Shown here piece by piece: positions 705-13,407 of a DNA stretch of 64,000 nt (positions within the stretch are counted from its first letter, which is position 1; every line of letters begins with the position of its first letter). Source of the DNA: Euzebyales bacterium (GTDB lineage: Bacteria; Actinomycetota; Nitriliruptoria; Euzebyales; JAHELV01); contig DASUUK010000065.1 of NCBI GenBank assembly GCA_036374135.1, positions 1 to 64,000 on the forward strand, read 5' to 3'. Both the position numbers and the translations under genes were made by a program. The notes beneath the pieces were generated by a model. That model had not been told where the DNA came from, searched no databases, and saw only the letters and a program-made list of their open reading frames with translations.

Positions 705-845
705 GTGTTGCAGCCACGCGGCAAGCGACCGTCGCCGTGGGAGTGTAGCCGTCCCGCACGCCGCATGCGAGTCGGCCGCGAACTGCCTGCCGGGACGCCC
801 GATCGACAAACGTGTTCGCCCCGCCTGACGTTACGCTTCGCCACC

Positions 846-1826
846 ATGCTGCGCATCGAGTCACGCACCGTACTGGACCGCGAGGTTCTCGACGAGATCC
901 TCGACCTGATCGAGGCGACGACCCGCATCGAGGGCCACCGGCCCGTGGGCGAGCACAAGTACTCGCACCTCAAGGTCGGGGCCACGGGCTGGCTCGGCGT
1001 GCTCGCCCACGACGATGGCCGCCTCATAGGCTACGTGCACACCCGCTGGGGCCACCCGGGCCAACGCCCGCGCGTCGCGGTCGAGGTGGTGGTGCATCCC
1101 GACGAACGTGAGGGCGGAACGGTCGCGACCGCGCTGCTCGACGAGACACGCGCCGCCATCGCCCGCGCCGGCGGCGGCTGGGTGTTCCTGTGGGTCCACC
1201 GTGTGGAGCAGGCCGACCAGACGCTCGCGTTCGAACTCGGGTACGACATCCAGCGCGAGTTGGCGTTCATGGCACGCCGGCTCGACGACCCCCCGCAGCG
1301 ACCGACCCACCCGGACGGCATCGACGTGCGCCCCTACCGTGGCCCCCGCGACGACGACCCCTTCCTGGCCGTCAACAACGCGGCGTTCGAGGGACACCCG
1401 GAGAACGGCGGGTGGACGCGGGAGGACTTCGCCGAGCGGCGGCAACGCGACTGGTTCGAGCCCGACGACCTGCTGATGGCGTGGCGGGGCGACGACCTGG
1501 TCGGCTTCCATTGGACCAAGTGGCACGGCCACGAGTCCGACGAGGTGCCTGCGCACGAGCCCGTCGGCGAGGTGTACGTGCTCGCCGTCGATCCGTCGGC
1601 ACAGGGACAGGGCCTGGGGCGCAGCCTGCTGGACGCCGGCGTGGCGCACCTGTACGACCGCGGGTGCCGGCAGGCGATCCTGTACGTCGACTGCGCGAGC
1701 ACGACTGCCGTGCGCCTGTACGAGTCCGCGGGCTTCGCCCACGAGTACCTCGACGTGTGCTACGAGCAGTGGATCGATTCCGCCGTCGACGGGGCGACCC
1801 GGGACCTCCTGCGCCCCGCCTACTGA
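846..1826 (+). CDS. mshD: Mycothiol synthase MshD (tandem GNAT acetyltransferase)
   Basis: A 326-residue protein, the usual MshD length, with two GNAT domains. It acetylates Cys-GlcN-Ins with acetyl-CoA, the last step of mycothiol synthesis in the cytoplasm. The C-terminal domain (about 155-310) has the acetyl-CoA loop QGQGLG after GEVYVLAVDPSA, the MshD motif NNAAFEGHPENGGWT and the closing LYESAGF motif. The N-terminal domain is more divergent, as is known for the family. ATG 846 was chosen over an upstream in-frame ATG at 705 because homology begins there and 705 lies next to the tRNA-Lys. Its 3' end overlaps the convergent gene by 7 bases. glnR two genes away matches mycobacterial gene order. 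Confidence 0.93.
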   Translation: MLRIESRTVLDREVLDEILDLIEATTRIEGHRPVGEHKYSHLKVGATGWLGVLAHDDGRLIGYVHTRWGHPGQRPRVAVEVVVHPDEREGGTVATALLDETRAAIARAGGGWVFLWVHRVEQADQTLAFELGYDIQRELAFMARRLDDPPQRPTHPDGIDVRPYRGPRDDDPFLAVNNAAFEGHPENGGWTREDFAERRQRDWFEPDDLLMAWRGDDLVGFHWTKWHGHESDEVPAHEPVGEVYVLAVDPSAQGQGLGRSLLDAGVAHLYDRGCRQAILYVDCASTTAVRLYESAGFAHEYLDVCYEQWIDSAVDGATRDLLRPAY

Positions 1827-2181: not shown

Positions 2182-2853
2182 CTACTCGTCAGCCTTCGGG
2201 GCGGCGGGATCGAGCTTGTACCCGACACCGCGGACGGTGCCGATCAGCTGCTCGTACTCGGTCCCGAGTTTGGCGCGCAGGCGACGGATGTGGACGTCGA
2301 CCGTGCGGGTGCCACCGAAGTAGTCGTAGCCCCAGACCTCCTGCAGCAACTGCGACCGCGTGAACACCCGCCCCGGGTTGTTCGCCAGGTACTTCAGCAA
2401 CTCGAACTCGCGGAACGTCAGGTCGAGCGGCTTGCCGCGCAGGCGCACGACGTACGTCTCCTCGTCGATCGACAGGTCGCCGATGCGCGCCCGCGACGAG
2501 CGGGCGCTGCGCGCCGTCTCGGCGAGCAGGCGCAACCGTGTCTCCAGCTCTGCGGGCCGTGCGCGGGGGAGCAACCAGTCGTCGAAGCCCCATGTGCCCT
2601 TGATCGCCGCGAGACTGCCGTCGTCAACGACGACCAGCACCGGGCGCGACCGGTCCGCAGCGGCGATCGACCGGCACGTGCTCGACGCGGCGCCCAGGTC
2701 GTCGGTCGCGTCGACGATGATCAGGTCCCAGTCCGCGGCCTCGCCCGCCTCGCGCGGGTGGAGCGGGGCGACGGACACGCTGTGATCGAGGAACTCCAAC
2801 GCGGGCAACAGCGTCTTCGCACTGTCGCCATCGGAGAGAATGAGCAGTCTCAC
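2182..2853 (-). CDS. glnR: GlnR-type OmpR-family transcriptional regulator
   Basis: A 223-residue atypical response regulator. The receiver-like domain (1-105) keeps an aspartate in IIVDATDD (D48) but little else of a phosphorylation pocket, as in GlnR orphan regulators. The C-terminal winged helix (about 125-215) is very close to GlnR/PhoP types: LTFREFELLKYLANNPGR, QLLQEVWGYDYFGG, RTVDVHIRRLRAKLG. GlnR controls nitrogen assimilation in actinomycetes. No sensor kinase is adjacent. The start is GTG 2853. Pairing with mshD supports the call over PhoP or MtrA. Confidence 0.88.
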   Translation of the reverse strand: MRLLILSDGDSAKTLLPALEFLDHSVSVAPLHPREAGEAADWDLIIVDATDDLGAASSTCRSIAAADRSRPVLVVVDDGSLAAIKGTWGFDDWLLPRARPAELETRLRLLAETARSARSSRARIGDLSIDEETYVVRLRGKPLDLTFREFELLKYLANNPGRVFTRSQLLQEVWGYDYFGGTRTVDVHIRRLRAKLGTEYEQLIGTVRGVGYKLDPAAPKADE

Positions 2854-4102: not shown

Positions 4103-4258
4103 CAAGTGTTTACTGTGAAATATCCCCCCGGCTGGGCCGGTGTGGCCGAGGCTGCTTGTCAATACGGTAGAAAGCAGACATGCACGTCGTCCACTCACCG
4201 CACCCGATGGAACCCGTCGACAGTGACGTGGTCACATCGCGCGGCTTCCGACCCACCT

Positions 4259-5296
4259 GTGGATGACGGCAGCGAGCGGACCCAGCTGACCGCTGACCGC
4301 TGGGTCCGCCGCACCGCCGATGTCAGCACCCGTCGCGCGCTGCGCAGTACGACGCGCGCCAGCATCTACGAGCACCTTCGTCGCGTCGGCGAGGGACAGA
4401 CGGTCCGTGACATCGCCGGCGCCTTCGAACTGCACCCCAACGTCGCGCGCACGCACCTGGAGACCCTCGCCGACGCGGGCCTGGTGGTCGTCAGCAGCCG
4501 CAAGCACCCGGGCGGCGGGCGCCCGGCCAAGCTCTACCTCGCGCGCCCGGAGGCGGCGGCTGACGAGGTCCGCGTCGACCCGGCCGCGGACGCCACGCGG
4601 ACGCCGTCCAACCTGCTTCGGCTGCTGGGCGAGGTCATCGTCAACGGCAACGGCGGCGCGCACGGCAGCGGGCGGCTCGAGGCGGTGCGGCAGGCCGCCA
4701 CGCGGGAGGGCGGACGCCTGGCGGAGCAGCACGCCGAGCCGGTCGAGTCGCTGGCCGAGGCCGTCGAGGCCGTGGCACGCATCCTGCGCTCCGGCGGTTA
4801 CCTCGTACACGTCCACAGGGCGGACGACGCCGGGTCACTGCTCAGTCGTCTCGGTGGTGCGCTCGATCCGCTGCGACCGGTGCGCGGAGGACTCGCCGGC
4901 GCGATCGAGTGGGGCCTGTTAAGCGGGGCCTTCTCCCGCGTCTGGCGCCAGGTCCAACTCTCACCCGTGGCCGATGTGGGCGACGGCGGCGGTCCCGGAT
5001 GGGCGGTCCGGCCGGCGGCGGCCGGACCGACGACCTCGCGGTTGATGGTGACGGTGGCGGGCAGGATCGATGCGCGGGGCGCACCCCGCGAAACCGGCGT
5101 CGTGCGCGCCATGCGGGCGATCACCGCCCTGGATCCCGGCTCCGTGCTGGAGGTGCTGGCCGGCGGGCCGGGCTCACCCGCGGCGTTCGCGCGGTGGGCC
5201 GATCGGGCCGGTCACGAGCTGATCGGCGTCGAACGAGCCGCCGACGATCAGGGGCGCCCGGCGATCCGGCTGCTGATCCGCAAGGGGCGCACATGA
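4259..5296 (+). CDS. Winged-helix regulator with C-terminal TusA-like domain
   Basis: About 345 residues. An ArsR/SufR-type winged helix occupies the first third: IYEHLRRVGEGQTVRDIAGA, LHPNVARTHLETLADAGLV and GGGRPAKLYL. The last 85 residues have the TusA layout, with strand, DARG turn, helix, then SVLEVLAG, FARWADRAGHEL and a terminal LLIRKGRT. The TusA cysteine motif CPxP is replaced by RETG, and the whole protein lacks cysteine. The start is uncertain: GTG 4259 is given, GTG 4223 is possible, and neither has a good ribosome-binding site. Its stop overlaps the next start (ATGA). It is likely a sensor/regulator of the following DsrE-like genes, possibly autoregulated. Confidence 0.75.
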   Translation: MDDGSERTQLTADRWVRRTADVSTRRALRSTTRASIYEHLRRVGEGQTVRDIAGAFELHPNVARTHLETLADAGLVVVSSRKHPGGGRPAKLYLARPEAAADEVRVDPAADATRTPSNLLRLLGEVIVNGNGGAHGSGRLEAVRQAATREGGRLAEQHAEPVESLAEAVEAVARILRSGGYLVHVHRADDAGSLLSRLGGALDPLRPVRGGLAGAIEWGLLSGAFSRVWRQVQLSPVADVGDGGGPGWAVRPAAAGPTTSRLMVTVAGRIDARGAPRETGVVRAMRAITALDPGSVLEVLAGGPGSPAAFARWADRAGHELIGVERAADDQGRPAIRLLIRKGRT

Positions 5297-5598
5297 CCGT
5301 GGCACTGTTGACATCGCAGCAACCCGCCGAGGCGCTGGCCCTCGGCTCCGGGTGGGCGCGCGACGGTGAGGACGTCGTGGTGGTGCTGCTCGACGCCGCC
5401 ACGATCGTGTTGCGACCCGGCCACGACGACGCTGCGAACCTGCGCGAGGCCACCGAGGCCGGCGTGCGCGTGTGGGCGCACGACCACGCGGCGGCCGAGC
5501 GCCTGATCGTTCCCGGTGACACCGAGGTCGAGCTCGTGGACCTCGAGGCCGTGGCACAGCTGGTCGGCGAACCCGAGACGAGGGCGCAGTGGTGGTGA
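5293..5598 (+). CDS. DsrE/DsrH-like protein 1, cysteine-free
   Basis: A 101-residue alpha/beta protein, second gene of a translationally coupled operon (ATG 5293 overlaps the previous stop). The fold pattern fits DsrE/F/H and TusBCD sulfur-relay proteins: a first strand TVALLTS, a VVVVLLDAATIVLRPGH loop, then AGVRVWAHDHAAAERL. In active DsrE proteins a cysteine follows the GVxVY strand; here a histidine stands in that region and the protein has no cysteine at all. It could be a structural subunit of a heteromeric complex with its two neighbours. Family assignment rests on fold pattern and context. Confidence 0.6.
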   Translation: MTVALLTSQQPAEALALGSGWARDGEDVVVVLLDAATIVLRPGHDDAANLREATEAGVRVWAHDHAAAERLIVPGDTEVELVDLEAVAQLVGEPETRAQWW

Positions 5599-5954
5599 GC
5601 CGTGCCATCACCGTCGTGCTGTCGTCGGCGACCAGCTCGGCGGCCGCCGCCACGGCGCTGCAGCTCGCCGATCGCCTGCTCGCCGCGGGGCACCGGGTCA
5701 TGATCTTCGCCCACGGCACCGCCGTCGATCTCGCGTTGGATGACGGCTCCATCGCCGACGCCGCCCGCGCGCTGGTGCGCCGCGGGGTGCACGGAGCGAC
5801 GCTGGACTGGGTGGTCGAGGCCGGCGCCACCGGGGGCCGCAAGATGGTGGACGGAGTGATCGTCGGCGACGAGGCGGATCTGTGGCGGTTCGTGCGCGCC
5901 GCCGACGTGGTGCTGGCTCCGGGAGGTGGACAGCCGTGGCGCGTCGTGTCGTGA
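5589..5954 (+). CDS. DsrE-like protein 2, cysteine-free
   Basis: A 121-residue protein starting at GTG 5589 (or GTG 5592), overlapping gene 1 by 10 bases. DsrE features are a beta strand ITVVLSSATSS, helix AATALQLADRLLAAGHRV, strand MIFAHGTAV, then GVHGATLDWVVEAGATGG and a final ADLWRFVRAADVVLAP. The last segment is typical of cytoplasmic DsrE-family members. No cysteine is present, so persulfide transfer in the classical way is not possible. It is predicted to pair with genes 1 and 3. Confidence 0.65.
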   Translation: MVVSRAITVVLSSATSSAAAATALQLADRLLAAGHRVMIFAHGTAVDLALDDGSIADAARALVRRGVHGATLDWVVEAGATGGRKMVDGVIVGDEADLWRFVRAADVVLAPGGGQPWRVVS

Positions 5955-6313
5955 GCATCCTCACTGCGGCGCCGGCCGCCATGTCCACCACCGACCCGGT
6001 GCTCGAGGCCAACATCTACGCCGTCGCCGAGGACGTGGACCTGACGGTCCTGCTGCGCGGTGTCGCGATCGAGTACGCGGCGCAGGGCGGGGACGCCCCC
6101 ACCGCGACGCTCGCGGGCCATGACCTGCCCAACAGCCGGTGCGCACGCGATCTGCGCGGCCTGCTCGAATCCGGCGTGCTGGTCTATGTCGACGCCGTCA
6201 GCGCCCGGCACCAGGGCCTGGACAGCACGGACCTCATCCCCGGCGTCAGCATCGCCGACGCCGACGAACAGTCCGCACTGCTGCGGACCGCGGACGCTGT
6301 GCTTCACTGGTAG
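5936..6313 (+). CDS. DsrE/TusC-like protein 3
   Basis: A 125-residue protein. GTG 5936 is chosen because GGAGG (5922-5926) sits 9 bases upstream, inside gene 2; an in-frame ATG at 5981 has no such signal. The pattern matches DsrF/TusC: VVSILTAAPA, then ANIYAVAEDVDLTVLLRGVAIEYA, and LLESGVLVYVDAVSARHQGL. The position of the DsrE cysteine after GVLVYV is an aspartate. The only cysteine is about 15 residues earlier (NSRCARDL). It is the last gene of the operon, followed by about 120 bases with no terminator that I could see. Confidence 0.65.
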   Translation: MARRVVSILTAAPAAMSTTDPVLEANIYAVAEDVDLTVLLRGVAIEYAAQGGDAPTATLAGHDLPNSRCARDLRGLLESGVLVYVDAVSARHQGLDSTDLIPGVSIADADEQSALLRTADAVLHW

Positions 6314-6437
6314 GCGCGCCGACGGCGCGATCGGCCCACCCGCGTCGATTCGGCGCTGACGAACGGGTCGGCTACAGTACACGGTCCGCTGTCGTCGGCC
6401 GTGGGTGGTGCTTCGATTTCCCATGGGAGCGGTTGGC

Positions 6438-8471
6438 ATGCAAGCGTGTGAAGTGTGCGGTTGGGACACGAGGGAGGGAACTCGTGTCTGTTCGTCCTGC
6501 CGTGCCGAAGGACATGGCGACCGTACCGAGGTCACCGCCCTGCTGACGAGCGTGCTCGAGAACGCCCGTGGCGCACCGGCGGAAGAGCAGGCCGCGGACG
6601 TCGGCGGGACGGCACCGGCACCGAGCGACAACCTGCCCGTTCCGGCGCGACCGAACAGGGCGTCCGGCCACGGCGAGCAGATCGTGCTCCGGGAGATCGC
6701 CCCGGGCGACGACGCGTCCGAGCAACGGACGGAGATCTCGTTGGTCGCTGCGTCACTGCTGGAGGCCTTCCAGCAGCCGGCGCCCGGGGCGGATGACAGC
6801 ACCGACCGCCTGCAGCCCATCGTGGCGCGCGAACAGCACGACCAGGGCGCGTTCACCGCCGACAACGTGACCGAACGGACCAACACCCTCGACGACTCCG
6901 GTCCGCTCGCACCACCCACGCCGACGGCCGATGAGACCGACGTGGCGGATCCGTCCGAGCCGACGGTCGAGATCACCGGCCGGTTCGCCAACCTGCCCAC
7001 CGTCCCGCTGGAGCCGGTCGATCCGGTGGGCGACCGGAACACAGACGCCGCGACGGTCGGTCGTGCGTCCGCGGCGACGGTGGACGACGCGACGTTCACC
7101 GCTGCGGCCCCCACGCCGTCCACGTCGGACGCGCACGCACCGCAGCAGACCGATCGCACCGCGGACATCGACGACACCACGGACATCGGCGACGACGCCG
7201 GCACCGCCTACGTCGCCAGCGTCGACCACACCGCTGACACCGATCACACCACGGACATCCCGCAGTTCCTCGGCGTCGACGACACCGGCGACATCGGCCT
7301 GCCCACGGACACGGCCGACGCAACCACGACGGCCGACCGGACGACCGGCACCGTCGACGCAGCCACGACAGCCGACGGGACGACCGACACCGAGGAGGCC
7401 CCGGCGTGGGACGACCGGGGCGCCGCTGAGCCGGGCGGCACGTGGAATGACGGCATCGACTCCACGACCGACGAGGCATGGGACACGGCGACGGCATCGG
7501 TCGACGCGGGCACGGTCCCGGAGTCGGGCACCGCGAACATGCCACCCTTGGATGGACCGGGCACGCCGGACACCGACACAGTGGCGCCCGATGATACGAC
7601 GACCAGCGGTGACGTGACCGGCGACACCGTCACCACGACCGGCGACATCACGATCGATCCGGACCCTGTCACGCCCGACGACGGCATCGACGGCCGCCGC
7701 GACGTGGCCGACGTCGACGACCGGTCATCTCCCGACGGCCTCTCAACGACCGACGGTGCGGACCGGCCCCATGACGCCGGGCATCTCAACCACGCCGCAT
7801 CGGCCTCGCCGACCGCGTTCGCTGTCGCCGACGCGGCGGCGGGCACCGACGCGCAGCATCACGACCCGCAGTCGCCGGGCGCCGACGACGTCCCGGCGCA
7901 CGAAGACGCGGTCACCACGCCACACCTGCCCGACACCGTCGGCGGTGCGACCGCAGGCACGACCGGAGCGTCGGAGCAGCACCCGCCCGGCCAGGCCGGC
8001 GCGTGGACGACCGTCGCCCAGGTCATGCTCGTGATCGTCGGCGTGCTGTGCGTGGTCCAGATCGTGGTCCTCATCGTGGTCTACCGGTTCCTCGGCGAGG
8101 CAGGCGCCGACCCCACAGACATCCTCGCTGCGCACACAAAGGTGACGGCGGTGATGCTCCCGGCCCTGATGGGTGGGACGTTCGCCGCGACAGCGTTCGC
8201 AGCGTGGCAAGCGTCGTCGACACCTACGCAAGGTCTGCACGTGCTCGGCCTGCCGGTCGCGTTGTGGGCCGTGCTGATCAGCGCGACGCTCGTGGCCGCC
8301 GTCGTCCTGCTCGGCGGATCGACGACGATCCTGCAGGCACGCCAGACGACGTTGTGGGCCACCGCTGCGTGTGCGCTGCTGGGGACCGCGTGCATCGCCG
8401 CACCTCGGGCGTTCACCGAGATGGTCGACGAGCACGAACCGGCGACCCCGGACACCCGCGTGCGGGTGTGA
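6438..8471 (+). CDS. Zinc-ribbon, acidic low-complexity, four-TM membrane protein
   Basis: A 677-residue protein. The start is ATG 6438, with GGGAG 8 bases upstream. Residues 4-23 carry two paired cysteines (CEVCGWD and CSSC), typical of a zinc ribbon. About 500 residues of Asp/Thr/Ala-rich sequence follow, with loose DTTDIGDD and TADTDHTTDI repeats. The C-terminus has four hydrophobic segments (starting near TVAQVMLVIVGVLCVVQIV and ending LLGTACIAAP). No enzyme domain is visible. It is convergent with the conservon next door, whose kinase tail has similar Asp-rich sequence. The coding frame is uninterrupted. Function unknown; it may be a membrane scaffold. Confidence 0.75.
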   Translation: MQACEVCGWDTREGTRVCSSCRAEGHGDRTEVTALLTSVLENARGAPAEEQAADVGGTAPAPSDNLPVPARPNRASGHGEQIVLREIAPGDDASEQRTEISLVAASLLEAFQQPAPGADDSTDRLQPIVAREQHDQGAFTADNVTERTNTLDDSGPLAPPTPTADETDVADPSEPTVEITGRFANLPTVPLEPVDPVGDRNTDAATVGRASAATVDDATFTAAAPTPSTSDAHAPQQTDRTADIDDTTDIGDDAGTAYVASVDHTADTDHTTDIPQFLGVDDTGDIGLPTDTADATTTADRTTGTVDAATTADGTTDTEEAPAWDDRGAAEPGGTWNDGIDSTTDEAWDTATASVDAGTVPESGTANMPPLDGPGTPDTDTVAPDDTTTSGDVTGDTVTTTGDITIDPDPVTPDDGIDGRRDVADVDDRSSPDGLSTTDGADRPHDAGHLNHAASASPTAFAVADAAAGTDAQHHDPQSPGADDVPAHEDAVTTPHLPDTVGGATAGTTGASEQHPPGQAGAWTTVAQVMLVIVGVLCVVQIVVLIVVYRFLGEAGADPTDILAAHTKVTAVMLPALMGGTFAATAFAAWQASSTPTQGLHVLGLPVALWAVLISATLVAAVVLLGGSTTILQARQTTLWATAACALLGTACIAAPRAFTEMVDEHEPATPDTRVRV

Positions 8472-8486: not shown

Positions 8487-9122
8487 TCAGCGCCCCTGCG
8501 TGCCGGCGGCCACGGACGACTCCCCGGGTTGCGCGGCGTCGCGCTGGACCGCGCGCAGCACGGCCTCCAGCAACGTGACGAGCGCCTCCTTGACCGACGC
8601 GCGGTCACGGGCGTCGCACCGCACCATCGGGATGTCATCGGCGACGTTCAACGCGTACCGCACGTCGTCGCGATGGTGCGTCGGCGCGTTGTCGAACTGG
8701 TTGACAGCGACGATGAACGGGATGTCGCGCGCCTCGTAGTAGTCGATCGAGGCGTAGCAGTGGTCGAGTCGGCGGGTATCGACCAGGACCACCGCGCCGA
8801 GCGCTCCGCGCACGAGGTCGTCCCACATGAACCCGAAGCGGTCCTGCCCGGGCGTACCGAACAGGTACAGCCGCAGCGCCTCGTCGAAGGTGATCCTGCC
8901 GAAGTCCATCGCGACGGTGGTGGTCGTCTTCTGCGGCAACCAGCTCGAGTCGTCGACGTCGGTGCTGGCCGTCGTCATCGCCGCCTCGGTCCGGAGCGGC
9001 ACGATCTCGGACACGGCACCGACGAAGGTGGTCTTGCCGACACCGAAACCGCCGGAGACGACGATCTTGACCGACTTGGGCTGCGGAGCCAGCCCGAACC
9101 CGTCAGAGGGAGCGGACGCCAT
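8487..9122 (-). CDS. Conservon small GTPase (CvnD-like)
   Basis: A 211-residue Ras-like GTPase of the MglA/CvnD group. The P-loop is GGFGVGKTT (residues 24-32), the switch/G3 motif is FGTPGQDRF, and the specificity motif is NQFD instead of the usual NKxD, as in conservon GTPases. It likely cycles between GTP and GDP states under control of the roadblock and DUF742 partners in a membrane-associated complex. It is the last gene of the four-gene minus-strand operon, overlapping the DUF742 gene by 20 bases. The C-terminal 20 residues look disordered. Confidence 0.92.
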   Translation of the reverse strand: MASAPSDGFGLAPQPKSVKIVVSGGFGVGKTTFVGAVSEIVPLRTEAAMTTASTDVDDSSWLPQKTTTTVAMDFGRITFDEALRLYLFGTPGQDRFGFMWDDLVRGALGAVVLVDTRRLDHCYASIDYYEARDIPFIVAVNQFDNAPTHHRDDVRYALNVADDIPMVRCDARDRASVKEALVTLLEAVLRAVQRDAAQPGESSVAAGTQGR

Positions 9123-9456
9123 CGATCAGCCTCCTGATCAGCTGTTCGTTCGTATCGGTCGGCCGGCTGACGCGCAGCGTCCCGTCCGCGACGAGATCGC
9201 CGATGAGGACCCGCGCCACGCCCGCCGGCACTTCCAGGGTCGCGGCGACCTCGGCGATCGAGAGCGGCTCATGACACATCATGAGGATCCGCCGCTGCTC
9301 GAACACGTGTCGTCCGGCGGCGTCGCGGCCCTCGGTGGTGGTGGTGACCAACGTCTCGAGCGCCAGGTCGGCGCCGTCCGACCGTGTGCGGCCGCCGGTG
9401 ACGATGTAAGGCGGCACCAGCCGCCCGTCGTCGTCGGCCGCCGAGGGTTGCCTCAT
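9103..9456 (-). CDS. DUF742 protein (CvnC-like)
   Basis: A 117-residue DUF742 protein of the conservon type. The family signature is visible in LVPPYIVTGGRTR near residues 12-24, RRILMMCHEPLSIAEVAATL in the middle, and GVARVLIGDLVADGTLRV. The fold is a winged-helix-like domain thought to link the kinase/roadblock unit to the GTPase. Its ATG overlaps the roadblock stop (ATGA). Always found in this operon order in actinomycetes, it supports the conservon assignment. Confidence 0.92.
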   Translation of the reverse strand: MRQPSAADDDGRLVPPYIVTGGRTRSDGADLALETLVTTTTEGRDAAGRHVFEQRRILMMCHEPLSIAEVAATLEVPAGVARVLIGDLVADGTLRVSRPTDTNEQLIRRLIDGVRSL

Positions 9457-9875
9457 ACCGTGAGTGCGTTCTTGAGCTCGCTGATGAGTGCCGGCGTGAG
9501 CGTCGTGCCGACGCGGTCGAGGAGCAGGGTCATCTCATAACCGACAAGGCCCATGTCGCAGTCCTTGTCTGCGAGGACCGCGAGGGTCGAGCCGTCGCTG
9601 ATCGCCGACACGAACAGCACGCCGTCGTACATCTCGACGATGACCTGTTCGACGTCGCCACAGCCCAGCAGGCTGCCCGCGCCGTTGGTCAGGCTGGTGA
9701 GGCCCGATACGATCGCCGCGAACTGCTCGACCCCGTCGCGATCCCTTCCGGCCGAGCCGGCGAGCAGGAAGCCGTCGGAGCTGACCGCGATCGCCTCGCG
9801 GACGCCTGCGACGTCGCGAACGAAGTTCGACAGCAGCCAGTTGAAGTTGCGAGCGCTGCCACTCAACTTACGCAT
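9453..9875 (-). CDS. Roadblock/LC7 protein (CvnB-like)
   Basis: A 140-residue roadblock/LC7-domain protein. It begins LSGSARNFNWLLSNFVRDV and contains REAIAVSSDGFLLAGS and VIVEMYDGVLFVSAISDGSTLAVL, the usual alternating strand-helix pattern. Such proteins act as GTPase-activating or docking partners of the conservon GTPase. The start ATG 9875 lies inside the end of the kinase gene (8-base overlap), so translation is coupled. Confidence 0.92.
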   Translation of the reverse strand: MRKLSGSARNFNWLLSNFVRDVAGVREAIAVSSDGFLLAGSAGRDRDGVEQFAAIVSGLTSLTNGAGSLLGCGDVEQVIVEMYDGVLFVSAISDGSTLAVLADKDCDMGLVGYEMTLLLDRVGTTLTPALISELKNALTV

Positions 9876-12800
9876 CGCCGTGCTCTCCCCCGTCGTGCTG
9901 ACGGCTGGCCTCCGACCGACCACGTTGGACCGCCTGCTGGAAGCGCGCGAGTCGATCACGCGCTGCGCGCGCGTCACGTTCGGCCGTCGTGAGCGTGACG
10001 CCGTTGTCGTCGGTGTCAGCGTACGCGGTGGCGCGGGATGGCGCGCGCCGTGGCTGGTCGGCCGATGCGTCGGTCGTCTGCTCCCGCCGATCTGACGCCG
10101 TTCGCTCTGTACGCAGCACGGCGCGGCCAGCCGGTGGCTGTCCGTTCGCGGGCCTGCCGTTGCCGTCGCGTCGCGATGACCGACGTCGGACCTCGAACAC
10201 CGGCACGGCGTCCGGGTCGTCTGCCGATCCCTCGTCCGCCGGGCGTTCGGACCCAGCCACGTCGACGTCCTCGTCGCGGCCGTCGGACGCGGCGTCCCGA
10301 TCCGCCCACCCCGCGTCGGCATCATGCCCGTCGCCGTCATCGCGAGCATCCGCGTGGTCGGAGCCGGCGTCGTCCGATCCCCATACGTCCACGTCAGCGC
10401 GCTCGCGCGCATCGCTGTCGGCGGCATCGTCGCGCTCACGGGCGTCAGCGGCGTCCTGTTCGTCAGCGCCTTGGGTCCGCACCGCGGTGTCCCAGACCGA
10501 TGAGGACGATGGGTCTCCGTGTGCACCCGATCGGTCCCACGGCTGCACGTCGGCCGGTCTGTCAACGCCCGTCGCGTCCTGATCCGCACCCCAGTCGTCC
10601 GATCCACCGCTGCTCCGCCCGCGTTCCGCGGTCGCTCCGATGGACCCGCCACGGATCTCGCCGGTGTCGCCATCGTCGATGCCGGACCCATCGGCCACGT
10701 GATCGTCGGGATCGGCGGCGGTCCAGCTCCAGCCGACGTCGCGCCGACCACCGGAGTGCCCATCCGACGCGTGGTCGTTGCCCACCTCGTCCCGATGACG
10801 CGGCGGGGCATCGAGGTCGACATCGACGCGTCCGAATGGCGCCGTTGTGGTGTCAGTGTCGGCGTCATCGTCCGATCTGTCGTCGACGAACGCCTCCGCG
10901 CGGTTCGACGCCGCCGCACGCGCACGCACCGGTGCGCGACGGTCGGGCCGCACGTCATCGTCGGAGCCGCGCCCCGTCCGGTCGTCGCGTCGCTCAGCCT
11001 GCCGCGGCCCCCGGTCGGTGCCGCTGCCTGTGGGCAGGGCAGGCGCCCGGCCGGCAGGCAGTTCGTTGGACGGCCCACGCGTCGCCGGATCGATCAACGC
11101 CGCGGGCAACAGCACCTTGGCGGTGATGCCCTCCGTGGTCGACTCCATCAGTCGCACACGGATGCCGTGACGTGCCGCGAGCCGGCCGACGACGAACAGG
11201 CCGAGGAAGCTCGACGGCACCCGGTCTACTTCGGGCGAGGTCTCGATCCGGTGGTTGGCGTCGTCGAGTTGCTCGGGGCTCATCCCGACGCCGTCGTCAA
11301 CGATCGCGAGCGCGTACCCGTCGACGACCCGCCGGCCGACGACCAGCACCGACGTGTCCGGCGCCGAGAACTGCACCGCGTTCTCGATGAGCTCGGCGAC
11401 CAGGTGCGTGACGTCACCGACGGCGCTGCCGGCCAGCGCGGCCTCGTCGACGCCCTCGAGGTTCACGCGCCGGTAGTCCTCGACCTCGGCGATCGCGCCC
11501 CGGACCACGCTGGTCAGCGACACCGGCTCGGACCAGCGGCGCGCGGGCTCCTCGCCGGCCAGCACCAGCAGGCTCTCGGCGTTGCGTCGCATCCGCGTCG
11601 CGAGGTGGTCGAGACGGAACAGGTCATCGAGTAGATCGGCATCGTTCGTGTCGCGCTCGAGCTTGTCGATGAACTCGAGCTGGCGGTTCAGCAGGTTCTG
11701 GTTGCGCCGTCCCAGGCTGACGAACATACGTGACACGTTGCGACGGCTGCGCGCCTGGTCGGCCGCGAGCTCCGCGGCGGTGCCGCTGACGACGTTGAAG
11801 GCGTCGGCGACATCCTCGATCTCGTCGTGCGTGTGCAGCTCGACGGCGGGCAGTTGCGGTGTCTCGTCGTCGTCGCCCGGCAGCGTCTGCGCCCGGTGGA
11901 CGAGCATCGGCAGCTGGGTGTCGGCGATGTTGCGCGCCGTGGAGCCCAGCGAGCGGAGCGGTTCGACGATCCGCTGTGCAAGGCGGGTCGACACGATGAA
12001 CGCCGCGAGCACAGCGATCAGCATGACGATCAGCATCACGACGCCGAAGGTCCGCGCGGTGCGGCTCAGCCCCTGCTGGACGTCCGACAGCCCGCTGAGC
12101 GGGGCGAACGCGATGTCGTTGGGTTGCTCAACGATCGCGACCCACTGGACGGCATCGCTGTCGACGTCGTTGTAGTCATCGACCAACGACGACAGTCGGC
12201 CGTCGACGGCGTCGAGCGGTGCGAACGCCGCAACCGCGCGGTCGGCGAGGACGAAGCCGGGCTTCTCGCTCTCCAGCGCCCGGGTGATGGTGTCAGCCCG
12301 CTCCTCGTCGAACTCGATGTCTGCGTTCATGATGCGCGACGCGCTGTGCTCCGAGCTGGTCTCGGCGAGCAGCTGGCCGTCACGCGTGAGCAGGGTGATG
12401 TCGCTGCCGGTCTCGCGCGCCAGCCGGGTGGCGATGCGCTGCACCTCGTCGAGCCGGATCACGCCCTTCACAACACCGAGGCGCTGCGACCCGTCTGCTG
12501 CTTCGATGCGTGCGGCGACGGTCAGACCGACCGCGTCGGAGCTGTCGTCGCGCTCGACGTCGCCGAGGTACAGCCCGTCCTCCCACGCACCGTTCCACCA
12601 GGTCTCGTCGCTCTGTACGAAGTCGCTCGTCCTGGCGGAGGCGGCGACCGCCAACCCGTTGCGCTCGGTGAAGAACAGCTCCGAGAACTGCGGCTGACGT
12701 TGCGTCACCGACCGCAGGTAGCGGTCGGAGGTCGACCCGGCGCCCAGCCGCCGCTGCCGGTCGAATTCGGACTCGAGCTCGCTCGTCGGGCGGATGACCA

Positions 12801-13191
12801 GGGTGTCGCCGGTCTCGGATCCGGTGCTCGCGGCGTCGCGCACCGACGGCGACGCCGACAGGGCGATCACGTCGTCGACACGCTCCCCGATGGCCCGGTC
12901 GACGTCCTGGGCGACGCCGAACGCCTCGGTCCGCACTGCGCGCCCGACAACGTCGCGTGCCAGCCCTTCGCGGCTGGCGTCGAGGTTGCGTTCCGCTGAC
13001 CGGGACAGCCCGACCAGGCTGCTGAGGGCGATCGTGCCGAGCAGCAGGAGCGGCAGGATCGAGATCAGCAGTGCCCTCGACAGGATGCGGCTCTTGAGCG
13101 ACTGGCGCGTCGATCCGGGCGCTGACGACGCGGGCGCGTCAGCCGCACGCGGGCTGCGGTTATTGGTTGGGCTGGCTGTGGTTGACCCCAT
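9868..13191 (-). CDS. Conservon sensor histidine kinase (CvnA-like) with very long acidic tail
   Basis: A 1107-residue membrane kinase; start ATG 13191 is chosen over an upstream in-frame ATG because the membrane helix begins soon after. TM1 is at about 38-62, an extracellular Cache-like sensor at 63-380 (DETWWNGAWEDGLYLGD), TM2 at 383-403 and HAMP to about 450. The kinase core has the conservon pattern SRRNVSRMFVSLGRRNQNLL and LVAELIENAVQFSAP (N box), VDDGVGMS (G1) and FLGLFVVGRLA. A classic H-box histidine is not evident, as is usual for CvnA. About 390 C-terminal residues are Asp/Arg-rich and probably disordered. It heads the operon kinase, roadblock, DUF742, GTPase. Confidence 0.92.
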   Translation of the reverse strand: MGSTTASPTNNRSPRAADAPASSAPGSTRQSLKSRILSRALLISILPLLLLGTIALSSLVGLSRSAERNLDASREGLARDVVGRAVRTEAFGVAQDVDRAIGERVDDVIALSASPSVRDAASTGSETGDTLVIRPTSELESEFDRQRRLGAGSTSDRYLRSVTQRQPQFSELFFTERNGLAVAASARTSDFVQSDETWWNGAWEDGLYLGDVERDDSSDAVGLTVAARIEAADGSQRLGVVKGVIRLDEVQRIATRLARETGSDITLLTRDGQLLAETSSEHSASRIMNADIEFDEERADTITRALESEKPGFVLADRAVAAFAPLDAVDGRLSSLVDDYNDVDSDAVQWVAIVEQPNDIAFAPLSGLSDVQQGLSRTARTFGVVMLIVMLIAVLAAFIVSTRLAQRIVEPLRSLGSTARNIADTQLPMLVHRAQTLPGDDDETPQLPAVELHTHDEIEDVADAFNVVSGTAAELAADQARSRRNVSRMFVSLGRRNQNLLNRQLEFIDKLERDTNDADLLDDLFRLDHLATRMRRNAESLLVLAGEEPARRWSEPVSLTSVVRGAIAEVEDYRRVNLEGVDEAALAGSAVGDVTHLVAELIENAVQFSAPDTSVLVVGRRVVDGYALAIVDDGVGMSPEQLDDANHRIETSPEVDRVPSSFLGLFVVGRLAARHGIRVRLMESTTEGITAKVLLPAALIDPATRGPSNELPAGRAPALPTGSGTDRGPRQAERRDDRTGRGSDDDVRPDRRAPVRARAAASNRAEAFVDDRSDDDADTDTTTAPFGRVDVDLDAPPRHRDEVGNDHASDGHSGGRRDVGWSWTAADPDDHVADGSGIDDGDTGEIRGGSIGATAERGRSSGGSDDWGADQDATGVDRPADVQPWDRSGAHGDPSSSSVWDTAVRTQGADEQDAADARERDDAADSDARERADVDVWGSDDAGSDHADARDDGDGHDADAGWADRDAASDGRDEDVDVAGSERPADEGSADDPDAVPVFEVRRRSSRRDGNGRPANGQPPAGRAVLRTERTASDRREQTTDASADQPRRAPSRATAYADTDDNGVTLTTAERDARAARDRLARFQQAVQRGRSEASRQHDGGEHGDA

Positions 13192-13407
13192 GCGTCCGCT
13201 CACGTTGGGATTGATGCCGTGCCGATCATCCGGCCGATGACGGTGACCCGGATCGGCGGCACCGTGGACGATCGTGTCTGGCCCCCGGCGCCCGGCCTGC
13301 GTGTCACCGAGTCCTAGAGACTCGCACATACGTAAGCATCTCGCGAATCGACCGATCGGCCAGCCGCGGCCGATAGCATCGACACCGGCGTCGACGACGA
13401 GGTGGCG

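Follow-up and report, generated by a model that had tools for sequence, protein, structure and literature searches.

Persulfide exchange by cysteine defines the TusA and DsrE proteins, and the question raised by this locus is what four overlapping genes with matches to the subunits of such a relay, the first of them fused to a DNA-binding domain, may be doing with a single cysteine among them. The locus lies in the window, i.e., the whole analyzed stretch of 64,000 nucleotides from the forward strand of contig DASUUK010000065.1 (Euzebyales bacterium, GCA_036374135.1), and its four genes are designated REG, D1, D2, and D3 (Table 1).

Four overlapping genes and their folds

An earlier note, made from the sequence alone, had described four coupled genes at 4259-6313 as a winged-helix/TusA-like fusion followed by DsrE-like proteins, and both the layout and the family assignments held, with every gene overlapping its downstream neighbor and with Pfam matches to HTH_20 and TusA in REG and to DsrE in D2 and D3. 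Structure models were built for REG and D2, each as a single chain. The AlphaFold2 model of REG, with 36 homologues as input, had a mean pLDDT of 86, while its pTM of 0.53 is too low to fix the arrangement of the domains. In Foldseek comparisons, the C terminus of REG resembled E. coli TusA (3lvj_C; TM 0.85 by target length) and the N terminus resembled CadC/ArsR winged helices, whereas the middle domain gave weak matches to BcsD and TRAPP subunits (TM 0.45 to 0.55 by target), which suggests that the modeled domain may be V4R-like; no Pfam V4R match was obtained in REG at an E value of 1. Conservation among the homologues, expressed as the mean majority fraction, was 0.72 for the TusA-like domain versus 0.75 for the winged helix and 0.48 for the middle domain.

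Table 1. Coordinates of the features discussed (window positions, except where a locus in another genome is given)
Feature	Position	Strand	Remarks
Mycothiol synthase mshD	705..1826	+	NCBIfam TIGR03448, 249.6 bits (cut-off 163.1)
GlnR-type response regulator	2182..2853	-	Pfam GlnR_1st, 111 bits
MoaD/ThiS-like sulfur-carrier domain fused to membrane segment	3071..4102	+	Weak NCBIfam SAMP1/MoaD matches
Region upstream of REG	4103..4258	+	Contains ACGGTAGAAA at 4164-4173
REG	4259..5296	+	GTG start; putative regulator: winged helix, middle domain, cysteine-less TusA-like domain
REG winged helix	about 4340-4543	+	Pfam HTH_20 (PF12840), 33 bits (cut-off 27)
REG middle domain	about 4604-5014	+	
REG TusA-like domain	about 5048-5284	+	Pfam TusA (PF01206), 31.9 bits (cut-off 28.6)
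R-E-T-G, REG residues 277-280	5087..5098	+	Replaces TusA C-P-x-P (profile alignment to TM0983)
D1	5293..5598	+	TusB/DsrH-like subunit, 0 Cys; ATGA overlap with REG
D2	5592..5954	+	TusD/DsrE-like subunit, 0 Cys
D2 Glu76	5817..5819	+	Site of catalytic DsrE/TusD Cys78
D3	5936..6313	+	TusC/DsrF-like subunit, single non-conserved Cys
CTPC-motif DsrE near REG operon	L061:3746-4198, L072:11388-11759, L075:1429-1791		

The three downstream proteins matched one relay subunit type each. With the Pfam DsrE cut-off at 22.7 bits, D2 (23.2 bits) and D3 (24.8 bits) scored above it and D1 (17.1 bits) below it; the top match of D1 in a profile search of the PDB was DsrH (2hy5_C; E value, 0.0012). The best pairs in hhalign comparisons with the E. 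coli subunits were D1-TusB, D2-TusD, and D3-TusC, a one-to-one pattern, although the individual profile scores were weak to modest. Moreover, YchN and DsrE ranked first among the Foldseek matches to the AlphaFold2 model of D2 (pLDDT, 89), with MTH1491 also matched, so that the folds put forward earlier were borne out for both modeled proteins. The previous reading of the three genes as DsrE, DsrE, and TusC/DsrF stood for D2 and D3 and was revised for D1, which fits DsrH/TusB best. On these profile and fold matches, 4259-6313 is predicted to encode a complete TusABCD-type set, comprising REG and TusB-, TusD-, and TusC-like proteins.

Loss of the relay cysteines across the class

Neighboring open reading frames have an average cysteine frequency of 0.84%, from which about six cysteines would be expected in the four proteins versus the one observed, which lies in D3 and agrees with the count given previously (REG itself has none). 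Since such a shortfall is only mildly unusual, the case rests instead on aligned positions, and none of the four alignments contains a conserved cysteine column. In REG, R-E-T-G sits under the C-P-V-P of the TusA protein TM0983, in agreement with the replacement proposed in the earlier note; among 36 homologues, position 277, that of the TusA nucleophile, is occupied by Arg (22), Tyr (13), or Phe (1), and the second proline of the motif is changed to Gly in 35. The DsrE Cys78 position holds Glu in 10 and Asp in 10 of the 20 D2 homologues. This register was agreed upon by HMMER alignment to DsrE, by HMMER alignment to a cysteine-bearing paralogue, and by two of three MAFFT modes, whereas the third mode placed Cys78 elsewhere, with a large gap. 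In D1, His63 occupies the DsrE-type cysteine loop, and there is no cysteine at the position of DsrH Cys20. Of the Asp, His, or nothing first read at the usual cysteine sites, the absence of cysteine held, and the residues at these sites in the window are Glu76 in D2 and His63 in D1. The middle domain of REG, on which the earlier note was silent, adds to that account: REG homologues have residues other than cysteine at the SufR Fe-S ligand positions, whereas relatives of the winged-helix and middle domains outside the class carry SufR-like C-P-F...C...C cysteines, and the domain has lost its Fe-S type cysteines as well.

The set is confined to the class in the genomes sampled. REG was found in 36 of 41 relatives, including all 29 with good-quality genomes, and full-length REG was limited to the class in a 397-genome sample of the phylum, with relatives of the winged helix occurring outside. 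The D1-D3 triplet was present in 16 of the 29 good-quality close relatives, D3 occurred in 21 of the 41 relatives and beside REG in every listed case, and D2, as detected with the DsrE profile, was restricted to the class in a set of 297 genomes. The named relatives are MAGs of Nitriliruptorales and Egibacteraceae. Within the genus, dN/dS was 0.12 to 0.39 for all four genes, with synonymous sites that are rather diverged, and by these ratios REG and D1-D3 are evidently under purifying selection.

Cysteines are retained in other DsrE proteins of the class, where all nine that were read keep the active-site residue. A CTPC-type DsrE lies ∼2 kb from the REG operon, in convergent orientation, in several genera (Table 1). 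G408 possesses both the cysteine-less operon, as REG-D1-D2-D3-cysH-DUF4395-thioredoxin-like gene (L092), and a cysteine-bearing DsrH-DsrE-DsrF triplet with a W-I-N-C motif (L087:1447-2662), with the order as in L092; a search of the 397 phylum genomes for cysteine-bearing relatives of this L087 DsrE gave one distant match, with a CGVC motif. The source genome of the window encodes one canonical TusA with CPRP elsewhere and no further DsrE beyond the operon, and no homologous operon with the relay cysteines was found. Two other arrangements were observed: another DsrE adjoins a second REG copy in L094, and a single open reading frame in L090 (G003:C14) joins a TusA-like domain without cysteine to a DsrE-like domain with one.

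Gene neighborhood and comparison with known systems

The most widespread neighbor of the operon, and the commonest gene upstream of it, was mshD (22 loci; synteny cluster 0), followed by the GlnR-type regulator (17 loci; cluster 1), which is transcribed away from the operon, and the MoaD-like gene (13 loci; cluster 4), both conserved upstream neighbors. In the window, the Gly-Gly end of the MoaD/ThiS-like domain runs on into the membrane segment within the same open reading frame, a fusion that would keep it from serving as a sulfur carrier in the usual way, while the MoaD-like protein terminates at Gly-Gly in L057, L060, L069, and L070. Downstream, the operon extends into cysH, DUF4395, and thioredoxin-like genes in three families (the f2 and f3 genera and G408 of f4), other relatives keep the DUF4395 and thioredoxin-like genes without cysH, and the genome of the window has cysH and DUF4395 on other contigs. 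The DUF4395 membrane proteins (L071:12061-12516 and equivalents) have a conserved C-V-G-C and are followed by a CxxC thioredoxin-like protein, which suggests that the two may form a membrane thiol-redox pair. A search for operators upstream of REG revealed no clear palindrome, and within the genus only short blocks were conserved, such as ACGGTAGAAA, which is identical across four species and is a possible promoter or operator.

Farther downstream in the window, 6405-8471 encodes a long acidic, threonine-rich, probably disordered protein that matches no Pfam family and has a zinc-ribbon-like C-x2-C...C-x2-C at its N terminus and hydrophobic segments at its C terminus. On the minus strand, 8487-13329 holds genes for a small GTPase, DUF742-like and roadblock-like proteins, and a sensor kinase, a set that by eye resembles an actinobacterial conservon.

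Like E. coli TusA-TusBCD and Allochromatium vinosum DsrEFH, the operon combines one TusA-type and three DsrE-family subunits, with TusA and DsrE folds, in adjacent genes; unlike them, it lacks the TusA cysteine, DsrE Cys78, and DsrH Cys20 (the last a feature of A. vinosum that E. coli TusB is also without), its TusA part is fused to a DNA-binding protein, and its gene order is H-E-F. ArsR-type sulfane-sulfur repressors (sHdrR/SoxR, BigR) sense by cysteines. REG shares with them an ArsR-like winged helix near sulfur genes, but REG of the window is without the sensing cysteine pair, and no such cysteine is conserved among its homologues. SufR (Rv1460), which requires its three cysteines (PMC6034842), likewise has an N-terminal winged helix and a related middle domain, whereas REG has lost the three Fe-S ligand cysteines and gained a TusA-like domain. 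The redox regulator MsvR of methanogens (HTH-V4R), which works through V4R cysteines (PMC3729527), shares the winged helix and may share, by Foldseek resemblance only, a V4R/TRAPP-like middle domain; REG differs in having a TusA-like domain and no V4R cysteines. The type II DsrEFH of cable bacteria and others is also a three-gene set divergent from type I, but it has been shown to transfer sulfur, and its DsrE Cys67 was present in 99.3% of sequences in a 2026 survey that put the remainder down to sequencing error (PMC13293266), while the cysteine is absent from 20 of 20 D2 homologues. A literature search on TusA-HTH fusions or on DsrE in Nitriliruptor found nothing relevant. By the features tested, REG-D1-D2-D3 is not a TusA sulfurtransferase, a DsrEFH transferase, SufR, or a sulfane-sulfur sensor that works by cysteine; parts of those known systems are assembled in it into a new, cysteine-free variant.

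A proposed pseudo-relay and its alternatives

Since other residues stand in place of the cysteines of both the TusA and the DsrE partners, the known chemistry cannot carry out the transfer, and the loss of persulfide chemistry is well supported. A regulatory complex is favored, in our inference, by the DNA-binding domain fused into REG and by the neighbors that belong to sulfur assimilation. Our best explanation, plausible if somewhat short of probable, is a pseudo-relay in which the binding interface would be kept and the persulfide chemistry lost and which would regulate sulfur assimilation and thiol redox. The earlier note had proposed a relay turned into a non-transferring sensor or binding system; its relay-derived, non-transferring character is well supported, while the sensing or binding role would follow from the fusion, the operon, and the neighbors.

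Under this proposal, D1, D2, and D3 would form a DsrEFH-type hexamer (alpha2-beta2-gamma2), on which the TusA-like domain of REG would dock as real TusA does, with the Arg (or Tyr) of REG facing the Glu or Asp of D2 where two cysteines once exchanged sulfur. A sulfur metabolite, or the genuine TusA of the genome as a competitor, might govern docking and release, which would alter DNA binding by the winged helix, through which REG could tune sulfate-assimilation and thiol-redox genes, its own operon included. The contact between the Arg of REG and the acid of D2 is attractive but unproven. Arg or Tyr at position 277 is also kept in lineages without D1-D3, so this residue need not contact D2, and the choice between the two tracks family rather than the presence of D1-D3; a covariation of this position with the triplet does not hold. 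More tentatively, and on balance doubtfully, the whole relay chain may have become a non-covalent signaling complex, in which a basic or aromatic residue pairs with an invariant acid and a switch at the interface holds or frees the transcription factor.

It is possible, though we lean against it, that the function resides in REG, as a repressor responding to a ligand or to redox state, with its TusA-like domain serving only for dimerization or ligand binding, while D1-D3 form a binding or scaffold complex of their own and have only the promoter in common with it. Many class members indeed have REG with an intact TusA-like domain and without D1-D3, and in these REG is followed by the DUF4395 and thioredoxin-like genes; however, D1-D3 were never found apart from REG in the sampled class, and their overlap with REG fits a functional partnership. 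Action of the complex in some other process, such as the regulation of mycothiol or Fe-S supply, with REG a descendant of SufR that kept its regulon and lost its cluster, seems unlikely: the relatives of the winged-helix/middle region outside the class, with their Fe-S type cysteines, adjoin iscS-iscU, a rhodanese, or an erpA-like gene, and ygfZ as well as mshD is among the syntenic neighbors, but in the closest recurring positions downstream stand cysH, DUF4395, and thioredoxin-like genes rather than genes of Fe-S assembly.

A carrier that still moves sulfide, sulfite, or other sulfur species without protein cysteines, e.g., by anion binding, is very unlikely, even though the DsrE fold is retained and the cysH, thioredoxin-like, MoaD-like, and mshD neighbors are sulfur or thiol genes. 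In the known relay, transfer needs DsrE Cys78, which binds sulfur (PMC3397948), or the equivalent type II Cys67, to which persulfidated TusA donates (PMC13293266). An invariant acid in place of Cys78 should tend to repel sulfur anions. Lastly, that an ordinary relay operon has decayed locally, or that unrelated folds were misread, is scarcely credible despite the low cysteine count and the subthreshold D1, decay being ruled out by class-wide conservation of the cysteine-less state (shared by five families) with dN/dS well below 1 and misassignment by the profile and Foldseek matches to TusA and DsrE.

Returning to the pseudo-relay, a class-wide, selected, cysteine-free set fused to a DNA-binding protein would be, in effect, an entire relay turned pseudo-enzyme, from which one could learn how the protein interface of a relay can be reused for control. 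The locus is a consistent, inherited exception to the cysteine rule of the type II survey (PMC13293266), though in a different set from type II, and it would supply, for an actinobacterial class that is almost unstudied, a candidate regulator of sulfur assimilation.
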